Below are positions 1-62,286 of a DNA stretch of 64,000 nucleotides, piece after piece. Below the pieces are notes generated by a model. That model had not been told where the DNA came from. It was given only the letters and a program-made list of their open reading frames with translations, and ran no database searches. Every line of letters starts with the position of its first letter. Position 1 is the stretch's first letter. The position numbers and the translations under genes are program-made. Source of the stretch: an uncultured Alphaproteobacteria bacterium (lineage in GTDB: Bacteria > Pseudomonadota > Alphaproteobacteria > RF32 > CAG-239); contig CALXUE010000009.1 of the NCBI GenBank assembly GCA_944391615.1, forward strand, positions 1 to 64,000. Direction: 5' to 3'.

Positions 1-827
1 AAATTTGAACATTCCTCAAACGTGCAGACTGTGCACGGCGGACATTCACTCTCTGTGCCCAAGTTCGGGCATTTTTTGCATTCCGAACACTTGACCTGAT
101 TTCCGCTTTGACAGGTTGAAGCCCCATCCTCACAACCTAAAGTTCCGCAATCCAAAAATCCGGAACAGTCTTTTTCTTTCACTCTGTATTTTTTGATTGC
201 CGTGGTATTGTTGCCATCACATTGCACACAAGGCTCGCCTACCGCCTCATATCCGTCAGGAATTGAACCTAATGTATATTTGTAATCAGCTCCGCAAGTG
301 TCGATACAACATTCTGGGTATAAACCATTGCCGCAAACTTGCCCCGCACCTTTGTATGGGGATTTACACGTTTTATAATCACTTGGACAATCGGGAATAC
401 ATTTGGCATAGTACCCATCCGCATACATACATTCGCCTTCTCCTTTATATCCATCCGGACAGTTGGTGACGGTATAACCTTCTTTGATGCAATCTTCAGG
501 TCCTTTCTTGTCATATTCGTCCCCACCTCCCGAACCACCGGTTCCACCATTATTGCCGATATCCGAGTTTACAAAGTCCAAACCGGCGCAATCACCCGTG
601 TCCATAATCCAACAGACTTGGGCAACCTTAACCAAAGATTTTTGATTTTTTGAAACTTGTTGTGGAGATAAAGCTCCATTCAAAGATAAATGTGTGTGAA
701 GTGTGTTGAAAAGTGTAACATCTTTGAATATATAATTCATTGAAGAAGAAATATCGGCTTGCGCCGTCTCCGCAACAAACGCGCATACAGACAACGAAGC
801 CAACAAGATAAACTTCCGCTTACTCAT
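1..827 (-). CDS. Cys-rich secreted protein, copy A (3' end cut by window edge)
   Basis: The frame is open from the ATG at 825-827 to the window start, about 275 codons without a stop. The first ~80 residues (signal peptide, then a segment ending in the CWIMDTGDC motif) are almost identical to the genes at 22295-23173 and 61320-62219. A Gly-rich linker and a Cys-rich region with CPDGY- and CIPDCPS-type motifs follow. The signal peptide indicates export, and the dense cysteines suggest a disulfide-bonded surface or periplasmic protein. A good SD (AGGAAA) precedes the ATG, and a consensus sigma-70 promoter lies at 866-894. In the two complete copies a DUF1566-type gene follows directly, so one is expected just left of this window. 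No biochemical function is recognised. Confidence 0.85.
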   Translation of the reverse strand, partial: MSKRKFILLASLSVCAFVAETAQADISSSMNYIFKDVTLFNTLHTHLSLNGALSPQQVSKNQKSLVKVAQVCWIMDTGDCAGLDFVNSDIGNNGGTGGSGGGDEYDKKGPEDCIKEGYTVTNCPDGYKGEGECMYADGYYAKCIPDCPSDYKTCKSPYKGAGQVCGNGLYPECCIDTCGADYKYTLGSIPDGYEAVGEPCVQCDGNNTTAIKKYRVKEKDCSGFLDCGTLGCEDGASTCQSGNQVKCSECKKCPNLGTESECPPCTVCTFEECSN

Positions 828-865
828 GATAATTTCCTTTCAATTACTTTATCTCCACGACTCGT

Positions 866-894
866 ATTATACCACAAGGAAAAAAGTCTGTAAA
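866..894 (-). promoter_or_regulatory. Sigma-70 promoter of Cys-rich copy A
   Basis: On the minus strand, TTTACA (889-894) and TATAAT (866-871) are separated by exactly 17 bp. The same promoter sits upstream of the other two copies with one base different in this copy (just upstream of the -10). It lies about 40 bp from the start codon. Confidence 0.85.
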
Positions 895-20815: not shown

Positions 20816-20832
20816 AAGAGAGAATAATAAAA

Positions 20833-20860
20833 AAACAGGAGCTAAAGCCCCTGTTTTTTT
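20833..20860 (+). terminator. Bidirectional terminator between amidase and DUF1566 gene
   Basis: AAACAGGAGC-TAAA-GCCCCTGTTT with seven T on the plus strand and seven on the minus strand; one A-C mismatch. It serves the converging genes. Confidence 0.8.
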
Positions 20861-20876
20861 GTGAACAATGAGCGTT

Positions 20877-22250
20877 CTAAAAAGCTAGGACTGGGAGAAC
20901 GTAATTGCTGTAACCCTTAAGGTCGTAGTCCACACTACCACTATAGAAGGACAATGTCCAAACATAGCCATTATCATACTCGGAAGAAGACCAATGATAA
21001 TTTGTCGAAATATCCTTCTTACCCAACAACGACAACGCATAGTTCATATAGTCCTTATTACTATACACTGTATTCAACTCACCCAAAGCCGGCAAATACC
21101 ACTCTCCCGCATTCGTGCCGGTGGTTTTATAATTATATGCATAGTATGCCGCTGCATAATTCGACAGATTACTATTATACGCCTTTATCGCCGCCGTATT
21201 CGCCTTACCGTTAAAGTCTTGTTTGGCTTTACTTGAATCTCTAATATTCGTTATCCCAGGAATATCACCGTACCCCCATACCATTGTTGAAGGCAAACTT
21301 TCCAAGGCTATCGCCGTACGCCGACTTGCATCAAACACAATTCCTATCGGCGTCTTCCCACTTGGCGTACTTCCCGCATAACATTTTTTATCTGAATATA
21401 AAATAGAACCCAAACCGCAAGCGGTTTCATTACTGCTAACGTAAGCAAAATTTGTCTTATTCTTGCTACCAAAGTTTATCACCGGTTTTGCTTTATTTTT
21501 AGCAATCTTTCTTCCTGTAGTGCTACTATTGTTTCCTATGCCGATATAATAGCTGCTGCCACTGTTTTGTTCCGATGATGACCAATAATTACCCGACATC
21601 TGTGTTCCGCCAATTTTAGCTAACGTTGTATTCAAAGTATCTTTGTTGGTCGAGATTGCCTGTAATTCTCCCGCCGCCGGCAAATACCATTGTCCCTGTT
21701 CTGTTCCAGTTGTTGAATATGTCAAAACCTTTTTAATCGCCGGATAATTATACCCTGATTTATCTGCCTCATACATTGCTTTGGTATTGTTAAACCCTTG
21801 CCAGTCTGCAGTTGAGGTTGATACACTGCTTGAGTTTTGTACCCCAGACACATCTTCTCCAACATAGCCCCATGGCATATTTGCAAACTCATCTTTAGCT
21901 ATGGCCAAACCATTGGTAGTATCAAACACCACACCGATTGGCGTTTTAGATGCAATCATATTTGCATTACAGCTCATATCTGAGTACAATATATCACCGA
22001 TTTTGCAATTTTTGAGGGCTTCTTCGGCTTGATTTTTTTCAATAATTTTTTCAAGTTCTGTAATTTTATTGACTAAAGTACAGTTCCACGCATTGCCAAA
22101 CGGACATTTCAAGCCACCGGAACAAGAAGTTGTGCTTTCATAACCCAAAGATGAACACGTCGGTGTTTTAATACAGGCCGCATTCGCCACCCCACTGTTC
22201 AACAAACCACTAGCAACCAAAGCCGATGTTAAAAGTAAATATTGTTTCAT
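20877..22250 (-). CDS. Secreted protein with two DUF1566 (Lcl_C-type) domains
   Basis: 457 aa. A signal peptide (to about residue 24), a Cys cluster (CIKTPTCSS...CPFGNAWNC), a short coiled coil (about 58-80), then two tandem DUF1566 domains. The first has QWYLPAAGEL near 190 and NYWSSSE near 222; the second has EWYLPALGEL near 395, YHWSSSE near 425 and the terminal PVLAF. The first domain ends with PVINF instead. Such domains occur in surface adhesins, including the Legionella Lcl C-terminus. The gene follows the Cys-rich gene by 44 bp and is probably co-transcribed. Partner and ligand are unknown. Confidence 0.8.
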   Translation of the reverse strand: MKQYLLLTSALVASGLLNSGVANAACIKTPTCSSLGYESTTSCSGGLKCPFGNAWNCTLVNKITELEKIIEKNQAEEALKNCKIGDILYSDMSCNANMIASKTPIGVVFDTTNGLAIAKDEFANMPWGYVGEDVSGVQNSSSVSTSTADWQGFNNTKAMYEADKSGYNYPAIKKVLTYSTTGTEQGQWYLPAAGELQAISTNKDTLNTTLAKIGGTQMSGNYWSSSEQNSGSSYYIGIGNNSSTTGRKIAKNKAKPVINFGSKNKTNFAYVSSNETACGLGSILYSDKKCYAGSTPSGKTPIGIVFDASRRTAIALESLPSTMVWGYGDIPGITNIRDSSKAKQDFNGKANTAAIKAYNSNLSNYAAAYYAYNYKTTGTNAGEWYLPALGELNTVYSNKDYMNYALSLLGKKDISTNYHWSSSEYDNGYVWTLSFYSGSVDYDLKGYSNYVLPVLAF

Positions 22251-22294
22251 TTTCTAAATCTCCTCAATAATAATTAAACTTTTCTCTCTCACCC

Positions 22295-23173
22295 TTATTC
22301 AAAAGCGCAGTAGTCACAGTAATCTTGGCACCCCGTGGCACAACCTGTCACAATGTACAAGTTGGAGCATTCTTCATAAGAGCAAACCGAACACGGCGGA
22401 CATTCTGATTCTGTGCCCAAGTTCGGGCATTTTTTGCATTCCGAACACTTGACCTGATTTCCGCTTTGGCAGGTTGAAGCCCCATCCTCACAGCCTAAAG
22501 TTCCGCAATCCAAAAATCCGGAACAGTCTTTTTCTTTCACTCTGTATTTTTTGATTGCCGTGGTGTTATTACCGTTGCATTGCGCACAAGGCTCGCCTAC
22601 CGCCTCATATCCGTCAGGAATTGAACCTAAGGTGTATTTGTAATCTGCCGGACAAGTGTCTTGACAACATTCCGCATACAAGCCATCCCCACAAACTTGC
22701 CCCACCCCTTTATAAGGCGACGTGCAGGTGGTATAAGATGACGGGCAGTCGGGAATACATTTGGCATAGTAGCCATTGGCATACATACATTCTCCGTCAC
22801 CTTTTTGCCCATCCGGACAGTTGGTGATGGTGTAACCCTCTTTGATACAATCTTCAGGGCCTTTCTTGTCATATTCGCTCGGTGGTTTATTGCCCGAACC
22901 ATTAATATCCGAACTCACAAAGTCCAAACCGGCACAATCTCCCGTGTCCATAATCCAGCAGACTTGGGCAACCTTAACCAAAGATTTTTGATTTTTTGAA
23001 ACTTGTTGTGGAGATAAAGCTCCATTCAAAGATAAATGTGTGTGAAGTGTGTTGAAAAGTGTAACATCTTTGAATATATAATTCATTGAAGAAGAAATAT
23101 CGGCTTGCGCCGTCTCCGCAACAAACGCGCATACAGACAACGAAGCCAACAAGATAAACTTCCGCTTACTCAT
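22295..23173 (-). CDS. Cys-rich secreted protein, copy B
   Basis: 292 aa with a signal peptide (cleavage near AETAQA) and 29 cysteines in the mature chain. Residues 1-83 are shared almost unchanged with copies A and C; a short Gly/Pro linker (about 88-98) varies; the Cys-rich remainder keeps its Cys spacing but drifts in sequence. It ends in DYCDYCAFE. Together with the DUF1566 gene downstream it forms a two-gene cassette. Its promoter is at 23212-23240 and the ribosome site is AGGAAA. No catalytic motif is seen; a disulfide-rich surface or matrix protein is the plainest reading. Confidence 0.82.
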   Translation of the reverse strand: MSKRKFILLASLSVCAFVAETAQADISSSMNYIFKDVTLFNTLHTHLSLNGALSPQQVSKNQKSLVKVAQVCWIMDTGDCAGLDFVSSDINGSGNKPPSEYDKKGPEDCIKEGYTITNCPDGQKGDGECMYANGYYAKCIPDCPSSYTTCTSPYKGVGQVCGDGLYAECCQDTCPADYKYTLGSIPDGYEAVGEPCAQCNGNNTTAIKKYRVKEKDCSGFLDCGTLGCEDGASTCQSGNQVKCSECKKCPNLGTESECPPCSVCSYEECSNLYIVTGCATGCQDYCDYCAFE

Positions 23174-23211
23174 GATAATTTCCTTTCAATTACTTTATCT
23201 CCACGACTCGT

Positions 23212-23240
23212 ATTATAACACAAGGAAAAAAGTCTGTAAA
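23212..23240 (-). promoter_or_regulatory. Sigma-70 promoter of cassette B
   Basis: TTTACA (23235-23240), 17 bp, TATAAT (23212-23217), within a ~120-bp upstream flank shared by all three copies. Confidence 0.85.
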
Positions 23241-34565: not shown

Positions 34566-34790
34566 TCAAAGATATTCAAAATACCGATCATCATACATAC
34601 AAACTTTGTTTGGACCTTTGCCTTCAGGGCAAGAGGTTAAGGTATAGCCTTCTTTGATGCAATCTTCAGGGCCTTTTTCATCAAACTCATCTGTTGGTCC
34701 GGCACCACCCCCAGGGGTGTCGTCACTCCAGCCAAATTCATTACCCAAGCAATCACCGGTGTCCATAATCCAGCAAAATCTGTAAATAAA
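34566..34790 (-). pseudogene. Decayed remnant of the Cys-rich family
   Basis: The frame from CWIMDTGDC to CMYDDRYFEYL matches residues ~73-140 of the complete family members (CWIMDTGDC, Gly/Pro linker, EFDEKGPEDCIKEGY, SCPEGKG). Upstream, the signal peptide, conserved N-terminal segment and promoter are missing, and a TAA occurs in frame 9 codons before CW. The C-terminal ~150 residues are also lost. It is a leftover of a fourth copy. Confidence 0.8.
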
Positions 34791-34827
34791 ATTTTATGAA
34801 ATAAACAAGCCTGAAAAAGAGAGCGTG

Positions 34828-60428: not shown

Positions 60429-61298
60429 TTAGAACGCTAGGACTGGACGAACGGAAACATAGTCAGTTTCTGTTTTATATGTTGAAGCTATGTAATAGGT
60501 TGTTTCACCACCAGCATTGCTACCAAGATAAAGAGTCCATGCTTTAGAGCTAGATTCTTCCGAAGATGAAAGAAAATATGCCGGTTGAGTGTAATGGGAC
60601 TTAGCAATCTCACCACCACCGACCTTTCTTAACGAGCTGTTTATAGAATCAATATTATCAATGATTGCATTTAATTCGCCAGCTGCTGGTAAATACCAAT
60701 CACCGGCTTTTGTTCCTTCTGTTTTATAATTATTCACATACTCAAACGCAGGACAACTTTTTCCTTTTGCTTTACAATAATCCAAAACAATTTGCGTATT
60801 TTTTTTACCTTGCCAATCAGCAATAGCCGCACTGGAAGATAAATTGTTTAAGCCAGGAACATCAAAATTATCAGAAGACCATAGATTTTGGAGGTAAGGA
60901 GCCCCATATAATCCTATTGCCAGCTTATTGGTGATGTCAAAAATAACACCAATTGCCGTTTTAGACGCAACAACGTTGGTGTTACAGCTCATATCTGAGT
61001 ACAATATGTCACCGATTTTGCAGTTTGCCGTTGCGGCGTCTTTTTGAAGCTCGGTAACTTTTGTTTCCAAGGTGGTTATTTTGTTGGTAAGATTGGTTAT
61101 CTGTGAGTTGATTGAGTTCACTTTGTTTATCGCGTCGCAGTTCCAATAATTCCCGAACGGACACTTTGTCCCACCCGAACAAGATGAGCTTGAAGAATAT
61201 CCCAAACTTGAACAACTCGGGGTTTGGATACAGGCAGCCTCAGCCACGCCGCTTAATCCCACCATCAAAGCCGATGTTAAAAGTAAATATTGTTTCAT
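60429..61298 (-). CDS. Secreted protein with one DUF1566 (Lcl_C-type) domain
   Basis: 289 aa from the ATG at 61298 (GAGGAG upstream). A signal peptide (to about residue 21), a Cys cluster (CIQTPSCSS...CPFGNYWNC), a heptad coiled coil (about 56-90: VNSINSQITNLTNKITTLE) that could trimerise, then one DUF1566 domain with DWYLPAAGELNAI near 205, YFLSSSEE near 245 and the terminal RPVLAF. The first ~50 residues match the two-domain protein at 20877-22250. Second gene of cassette C, 21 bp after the Cys-rich gene. Surface stalk-and-head architecture is inferred. Confidence 0.8.
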   Translation of the reverse strand: MKQYLLLTSALMVGLSGVAEAACIQTPSCSSLGYSSSSSCSGGTKCPFGNYWNCDAINKVNSINSQITNLTNKITTLETKVTELQKDAATANCKIGDILYSDMSCNTNVVASKTAIGVIFDITNKLAIGLYGAPYLQNLWSSDNFDVPGLNNLSSSAAIADWQGKKNTQIVLDYCKAKGKSCPAFEYVNNYKTEGTKAGDWYLPAAGELNAIIDNIDSINSSLRKVGGGEIAKSHYTQPAYFLSSSEESSSKAWTLYLGSNAGGETTYYIASTYKTETDYVSVRPVLAF

Positions 61299-61319: not shown

Positions 61320-62219
61320 TTAATTTCCAAAAGCGCAGTAGTCGCAATAATCGGTGCAGCCTGTTTTGCAGCCCGAAACGACATATAAGTTTGAACATTC
61401 CTCAAACGTGCAGACCGTACACGGCGGACATTCGCTTTCCGACCCCAAGTTCGGGCAAGGTTTGCAACGTGAGCATTTTGTCACACTCCCAGACTTGCAA
61501 GTTGTCGCGCCGTCATCGCAGCCCATTTTTCCGCAGTCTAAAAAGCCGGAACAGTCTTTCTCTTTCACTTTATATTTTTTGATTGCTGTTGAATTATTGC
61601 CATTGCATTGCACGCAAGGTTCACCAACCGCCTCATATCCGTCAGGAATTGAACCTAATGTATATTTGTAATCAGCCCCGCAAGTGTCGACACAACATTC
61701 GGCATACAAGCCATTGCCGCAAACTTGCCCCACACCTTTATACGGTGATTTGCAAGTCACATAATTACTCGGACAGTCGGGAATACATTTCGCATAGTAA
61801 CCATCCGCATACAAACATTCTCCATCACCTTTATACCCATCCGGACAGTTGGTGACGGTATAACCCTCTTTAATACAATCTTCAGGGCCTTTCTTGTCAT
61901 ATTCCTCTGGGTTGTCGTCAGCACCGCCACCGGCTCCACCGTGATTGCCGATATCCGAGTTCACAAAGTCCAAACCAGCGCAATCTCCCGTGTCCATAAT
62001 CCAACAGACTTGGGCAATCTTCACCAAAGATTTTTGATTTTTTGAAACTTGTTGTGGAGATAAAGCTCCATTCAAAGATAAATGTGTGTGAAGTGTGTTG
62101 AAAAGTGTAACATCTTTGAATATATAATTCATTGAAGAAGAAATATCGGCTTGCGCCGTCTCCGCAACAAACGCGCATACAGACAACGAAGCCAACAAGA
62201 TAAACTTCCGCTTACTCAT
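61320..62219 (-). CDS. Cys-rich secreted protein, copy C
   Basis: 299 aa. Signal peptide and residues 1-83 nearly identical to copies A and B (one Val-to-Ile and one Ser-to-Asn change). The linker here is IGNHGGAGGGADDNPEE, longer than in copy B. The Cys-rich part keeps the spacing of the others and ends in DYCDYCAFGN. Promoter at 62258-62286. Followed by the single-domain DUF1566 gene. Confidence 0.82.
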   Translation of the reverse strand: MSKRKFILLASLSVCAFVAETAQADISSSMNYIFKDVTLFNTLHTHLSLNGALSPQQVSKNQKSLVKIAQVCWIMDTGDCAGLDFVNSDIGNHGGAGGGADDNPEEYDKKGPEDCIKEGYTVTNCPDGYKGDGECLYADGYYAKCIPDCPSNYVTCKSPYKGVGQVCGNGLYAECCVDTCGADYKYTLGSIPDGYEAVGEPCVQCNGNNSTAIKKYKVKEKDCSGFLDCGKMGCDDGATTCKSGSVTKCSRCKPCPNLGSESECPPCTVCTFEECSNLYVVSGCKTGCTDYCDYCAFGN

Positions 62220-62257
62220 GATAATTTCCTTTCAATTACTTTATCTCCACGACTCGT

Positions 62258-62286
62258 ATTATAACACAAGGAAAAAAGTCTGTAAA
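62258..62286 (-). promoter_or_regulatory. Sigma-70 promoter of cassette C
   Basis: TTTACA (62281-62286), 17 bp, TATAAT (62258-62263); identical to cassette B. Confidence 0.85.

Follow-up and report, generated by a model that had tools for sequence, protein, structure and literature searches.

Dispersed two-gene operons with lectin heads as probable remote targets of a diversity-generating retroelement in a gut alphaproteobacterium

The two-gene cassette in this study belongs to a set of two dozen or more two-gene operons with one common promoter in a single genome, and its second gene, B, is targeted from another contig by a diversity-generating retroelement (DGR), a driver that the first-pass annotation of this DNA overlooked. 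The best overall explanation, with an estimated probability of about 0.87, is that operons of a Cys-rich gene (A) and a DUF1566 gene (B) have the lectin head of B diversified in trans by a DGR consisting of a reverse transcriptase (RT), the protein bAvd and two template repeats, TR1 and TR2. The stretch of DNA that was analyzed, referred to as the window, comprises positions 1–64000 (64,000 nucleotides) of contig C9 in a 1.57 Mb draft genome of 32 contigs (G000).

The cassettes and the pairing of A with B

The features of the window are as follows:

22295..23173, minus strand: gene A1, first gene of the operon, exported Cys-rich protein of 292 aa with ~30 Cys (open reading frame)
20877..22250, minus strand: gene B1, exported DUF1566/Lcl_C protein of 457 aa, DGR target
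20883..20993, minus strand: variable repeat (VR) of B1, from template TR1 at C17:26331-26441 (TR/VR alignment)
20827..20854, minus strand: hairpin ACAGGGGCTTTAGCTCCTGT and T-run 3' of B1, probable terminator, not specific to VR genes
23195..23240, minus strand: promoter of cassette 1, with TTTACA at 23240-23235, 17 bp, TATAAT at 23217-23212 and a conserved 5' leader to 23195
61320..62219, minus strand: gene A2, Cys-rich protein of 299 aa, 87% identity to A1 (open reading frame)
60429..61298, minus strand: gene B2, DUF1566 protein with a single head
62241..62263, minus strand: promoter of cassette 2, TATAAT-leader part (motif search)
3..827, minus strand: gene A3, cut by the window edge
849..871, minus strand: promoter of cassette 3, TATAAT-leader part (motif search)
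34566..34793, minus strand: A-gene remnant, 75-aa frame with 56% identity over 68 aa

Two complete cassettes of common order, strand, short gap and promoter, with a third cut at the window edge, had been described previously, and this layout was recovered in full. The frames are open on the minus strand with gaps of 44 bp (A1–B1) and 21 bp (A2–B2, counted from the ATG of B2, for which an alternative longer frame with a TTG start extends to 61313), A3 has its own promoter motif, and all three copies in the window have TTTACA-17-TATAAT with the 5' leader ACGAGTCGTGGAGATAA. Alignment upstream of the A genes gives a promoter region of ~110 bp in common, with a fixed 5' leader, and the TATAAT-leader motif occurs in 27 copies genome-wide (26 of them exact), while a reversed control pattern gives 0. 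The isolated A remnant has neither the promoter motif nor a B partner.

In this genome, iterated profile searches returned open frames or fragments numbering ~33 for A and ~38 for B, figures that are approximate because the draft is fragmented and many contigs end within A or B genes (e.g., L011, L014, L020, L023, and L026–L029). The repeat family is probably a main cause of this fragmentation, and the true copy number may be higher than that counted. The count of VRs is firmer, since every VR is distinct. Of 125 genomes sampled from the order, 52 contain relatives of A; these belong to 9 of 16 genera, and the copy number ranges from 1 to at least 27.

The protein B1 consists of a signal peptide, a small N-terminal Cys module, a coiled coil and two C-type-lectin heads. 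The earlier description of one or two DUF1566 heads in B stands, with a Pfam Lcl_C/DUF1566 (PF07603) score of 46.6 bits for B1 against a gathering cut-off of 34.9, and 24 bits, below that cut-off, for B2. The active head of B1 was modeled with a pLDDT of 90 and a pTM of 0.88, and the model resembles the Bacteroides fimbrial protein 4eps (Z 17.0) and the C-terminal domain of Legionella Lcl (8q4e, Z 13.9), by which the head is, as modeled, a C-type lectin. Gene A has no match in Pfam, NCBIfam or the PDB sequences, and no fold is claimed for it because its structure model is poor (pLDDT 56). Of the former proposal of a disulfide-crosslinked matrix protein with a displayed adhesin, the exported lectin-adhesin head is retained, and a crosslinking or matrix role of A is conjectural. 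Two further candidates were rejected: the Lcl collagen-like adhesin equivalog NF046116 scored 21.9 bits against a cut-off of 500, and homology of the N-terminal Cys module of B to A reached an hhalign probability of only 5%. A likeness between this module and A is visible by eye in L157 only.

Within the window genome, ~27 of 32 testable DUF1566 genes sit 3' of a Cys-rich gene. Among the 20 B genes with a VR, an automatic count places A directly upstream in 14, and in two more (on C29 and C31) the contig edge retains the last ~45 residues of A; three of the 20 are cut by a contig edge. Pairing with A was also found for 11 of the 15 non-VR B genes whose upstream flank could be tested. Wherever the downstream flank of an A frame is visible, a B follows, except for three long variants and one remnant. 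Long A relatives without B are seen at L044:2057-4855 (932 aa), L040:2516-4228 (570 aa) and L041:3829-5406 (525 aa); these have many more Cys-rich repeats, and two of the three have the promoter motif, one with two mismatches. The perfect TR1-type VR gene at C1:119680-120381 (L018) is possibly a cytosolic DGR target.

It is doubtful that A merely hitch-hikes, with one operon duplicated often and its two proteins not working together. The operons are plainly paralogs of one another and their promoters are almost identical, as this would predict, and the sampled loci of three congeners (G003, G005, and G006) hold B without an upstream A. The B proteins of these congeners, however, have Cys-rich segments between the N-terminus and the head, most clearly in G006, where a single chain combines Cys-rich modules with the lectin head. 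In G002, A and the last B head are fused in one frame at L084:556-2058 and L103:982-2502 (500 and 506 aa), and B is behind or fused to A in 18 of 18 fetched loci with A, most of which were picked for a nearby B match and five of which were not. Pairs have also been kept just 5' of the RT in the MAG loci L113, L115 and L157, even though A there is only 32–35% identical to that of the window, and C1:119680, which alone among full-length VR genes lacks an A partner, is also without an obvious signal peptide. An accidental pairing had been considered in the first-pass annotation; A and B stay together in the window species and in G002, but not throughout the genus, the upstream A being absent from the sampled loci of the three congeners. 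Judged from sequence, the pairing does not appear to be accidental, and a physical partnership of A and B is likely.

Signal peptides are predicted for both A and B, as read from their sequences, and neither has an obvious lipobox or membrane anchor, as would be expected if A and the lectin formed a secreted, non-anchored product such as a mucus-binding particle in place of a cell-surface display. This is considered unlikely, as the cellular DGR targets that have been characterized are mostly proteins of the cell surface (PMC10907252, PMC8144416), and a flagellar L-ring gene in the window implies an outer membrane on which an unseen anchor might act.

The retroelement and its variable repeats

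The PF07603 matches in the genome include two stop-containing stretches just 5' of its sole RT, on contig C17. At this locus (L010) the order is an A–B cassette, then bAvd, two non-coding template repeats and the RT. The RT is the single PF00078 match in the genome (RVT_1, 64.3 bits) and contains the motifs LPIGNLTSQ and YVDDF; its profile best matches 8ub7 in the PDB (E 1e-35, with the next RT at 3.2e-8), which is the RT of the BPP-1 DGR. The bAvd protein scores 58.6 bits for PF22296 (cut-off 40) and 53.3 bits for NCBIfam DivGenRetAVD, which is under the cut-off of 80. The templates are:

C17:26331-26441: template TR1, between bAvd and the RT, non-coding
C17:26605-26718: template TR2, between bAvd and the RT, non-coding

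Each template holds 15–16 AAY codons without an open gene. An IMH-like 3' constant segment, ACGTTCGCCCAGTCCTAGCTT, is present in the TR and in most VRs, and is followed by ATTC in the TR and mostly by TTTAG or TTTGA in the VRs. With an RT of the DGR group, an Avd-type protein, a template by the RT, A-specific VRs, an IMH-like segment and a lectin target fold all observed, the C17 locus is near certain to be a DGR.

Alignment of all B 3' ends to the templates identified the 20 B genes with a VR by their low number of non-A differences; 11 of them fit TR1 and 9 fit TR2. When these VRs are pooled, the template A is changed at 336 of 817 positions and other bases at 72 of 1423 (Fisher p = 1.6e-99). 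The VR of B1 has an exact 5' anchor and a near-exact 3' anchor relative to TR1, with 19 of 41 template adenines replaced and 4 of 70 other bases, the latter being more than would be expected after a fresh transfer. The 3' end of B2 retains the end CGTTCGTCCAGTCCTAGC, and with 20 non-A mismatches and 27 gap columns against the present templates it is not derived from them, as is the case for the 3' ends of about a dozen or more B genes, B2 included. On a target tree built from the head part 5' of the VR, template type is unclustered (7 changes, with a shuffled mean of 6.8), and no fewer than 3 template-type changes are required by branches with strong support. Template type is therefore uncoupled from target phylogeny, which argues that the targets have been rewritten repeatedly and in trans.

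These VRs, including that of the window, might instead be frozen relics in ordinary paralogous adhesins, most of which the DGR no longer acts on, but this is improbable. Non-A mismatches (4 in the VR of B1 and up to 12 in others), clearly retired copies such as that at 60429–61298, and the retention of A–B pairs in G002, in which no RT was detected, are all consistent with relics. The VRs at C7:77012 (0/73), C1:119680 (0/70) and C17:24661 (0/70), on the other hand, match the template at every non-A base, so that some transfers are recent, and two of these three lie on contigs other than that of the RT. The scatter of template types over the target tree also speaks against relics, as does the RT itself, which is intact and, with ~60% identity, is conserved in 8 of the 11 genomes from the genus, several with intact templates alongside.

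Further observations were made on individual repeats. The window VR, at 20960–20993, and the VR of the gene at C5:100702 (L020) have a common 5' block, TATGATAATGGCTATG, non-A changes included, and differ afterwards, which points to VRs of mosaic origin, to gene conversion or to a template variant that was not seen. The first heads of the double-headed B proteins at C16:33498 and C19:9700 are VR-like and look like retired VRs, because the 3' constant end is absent. A post-VR hairpin was considered as a target-recognition signal and rejected; such hairpins occur after genes with and without a VR, and so are probably terminators and not diagnostic.

Although many DGRs are phage-borne (PMC8144416), it is scarcely credible that the A–B units serve a phage or prophage in receptor binding and are varied to change its host range, in the manner of BPP-1, given the housekeeping neighbors of the window cassettes (amidase, carbohydrate phosphorylase, FlaF, and glycosyltransferase genes), the lack of any A relative in IMG/VR or 50,697 phage records, and the signal peptides read from both sequences.

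Template arrays and the leader hairpin

In a scan of named genomes, close relatives were found in gut Alphaproteobacteria MAGs, including Azospirillum sp. CAG:239, which would point to the GTDB order RF32 and its genus CAG-239. Templates in the relatives form tandem arrays of 1–7 units, each of ~270 bp, with a period of about 250–300 bp, there being two units in the window genome, three in L104, L115 and L118, four in L114 and seven in L119. The seven of L119 (L119:805-2640) are non-identical and lie 5' of one RT; the unit at about 1150 is adenine-poor, as if mutation had affected a template. Each unit has a 15-bp hairpin immediately 5' of its template; in the window genome these hairpins are at:

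L010:6258-6334: leader hairpin 5' of TR1
L010:6532-6608: leader hairpin 5' of TR2

An alignment of 29 hairpin sequences contains compensatory change at 9 of 15 pairs, with 95.9% of cells able to pair, and the observed measures are attained by 0–4 of 500 shuffles. The leader hairpin has no Rfam match, Rfam giving tRNA only in L010, L119 and L114. In the window genome, a covariance model detects two significant copies and no more, both 5' of templates, and a hidden third template was rejected on this basis. Beyond its seed, the model finds copies in L118, L124, L125, L149 and a DGR of Bacteroides timonensis (L129:7727-7794), each with a template-like stretch next to it that is AAC-rich in all except L118. 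Within this RT clade, such a hairpin may mark the template RNAs of DGRs in general.

On balance, the somewhat favored view of these loci is of a template-array DGR, in which one RT would be served by 1–7 non-identical tandem templates, each with a hairpin marking the RNA for the RT, and these would be written interchangeably into co-regulated two-gene surface operons, giving a repertoire of lectins, each with a Cys-rich partner.

Proposed mechanism and comparison with known systems

If the B heads are diversified in trans as proposed, the RT and bAvd would copy either of the two adjacent template RNAs and randomize the template adenines, with the RT–Avd complex most likely recognizing the template RNA through flanking structure, the leader hairpin included. 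The mutated cDNA would then replace the 3' end of ~20 dispersed B genes in trans, including that at 20883–20993 of the window, and this retrohoming may be active at present. The displayed lectins would then form a repertoire of as many as ~10^22 sequences at each site, this being the number of protein variants that one template allows by codon arithmetic. Co-transcribed from the common promoter, A may scaffold or anchor B or help to present the head at the surface, as suggested by the operon structure, the A–B fusions and the single-chain stalk-head proteins. The head could possibly bind host glycans, other cells or phage.

A gut genome of 1.57 Mb would thus commit ~20 variable lectins, over 25 promoter-matched operons and its sole RT to diversification, and the repertoire may be likened, by analogy, to a small bacterial counterpart of an antibody repertoire. 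The leader hairpin offers a searchable and testable RNA mark of a DGR template, and A, being fused to the head in some species, provides a concrete hypothesis for the presentation of cellular DGR lectins. The finding bears on an under-studied group of gut Alphaproteobacteria.

Most described DGRs have one or few targets and one template. The BPP-1 DGR (Mtd, Avd, and bRT) is similar to the present system in its RT family, Avd partner, template by the RT, adenine-specific mutagenesis, and C-type-lectin target with a C-terminal VR, whereas the system here is bacterial and chromosomal, with two templates, ~20 targets in trans, the DUF1566 family and a two-gene target operon. The Legionella Lcl adhesin (NF046116) shares the C-terminal domain family and fold with B, which lacks its collagen-like repeats. 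Lcl itself is not known to have a Cys-rich gene as its partner.

The DUF1566 domain ranks with the most frequent targets of DGRs (PMC4159848, PMC6642488). DGRs with multiple VRs and with multiple TRs are already known; several VRs are counted in 271 of 948 DGRs, 216 of these 271 having one TR (PMC6642488). The Treponema denticola DGR (TvpA family) likewise has one RT with dispersed exported C-type-lectin targets elsewhere on the chromosome, but 2–7 targets per isolate compared with 20 here, and no Cys-rich partner gene is described in the accessible sections of that paper (PMC4891356). The DGR of Stenotrophomonas sp. SKA14 also has two templates and several DUF1566 targets, with six VRs and, in the text accessible, no partner gene or template-leader hairpin reported (PMC6642488). 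Thiohalocapsa PB-PSB1 is alike in having many targets (15) per genome, some in trans; these belong to nine DGR loci with NACHT/ternary-conflict targets, in contrast to the one RT and ~20 mostly exported lectins here (PMC10907252). In the literature covered, no DGR in this lineage, hairpin-led tandem templates or A–B pair was found. Relative to these known systems, the novelty lies in the scale on which a single RT works, in two-gene operons with matching promoters and some gene fusions, in templates arranged in tandem and in a leader hairpin that shows covariation.
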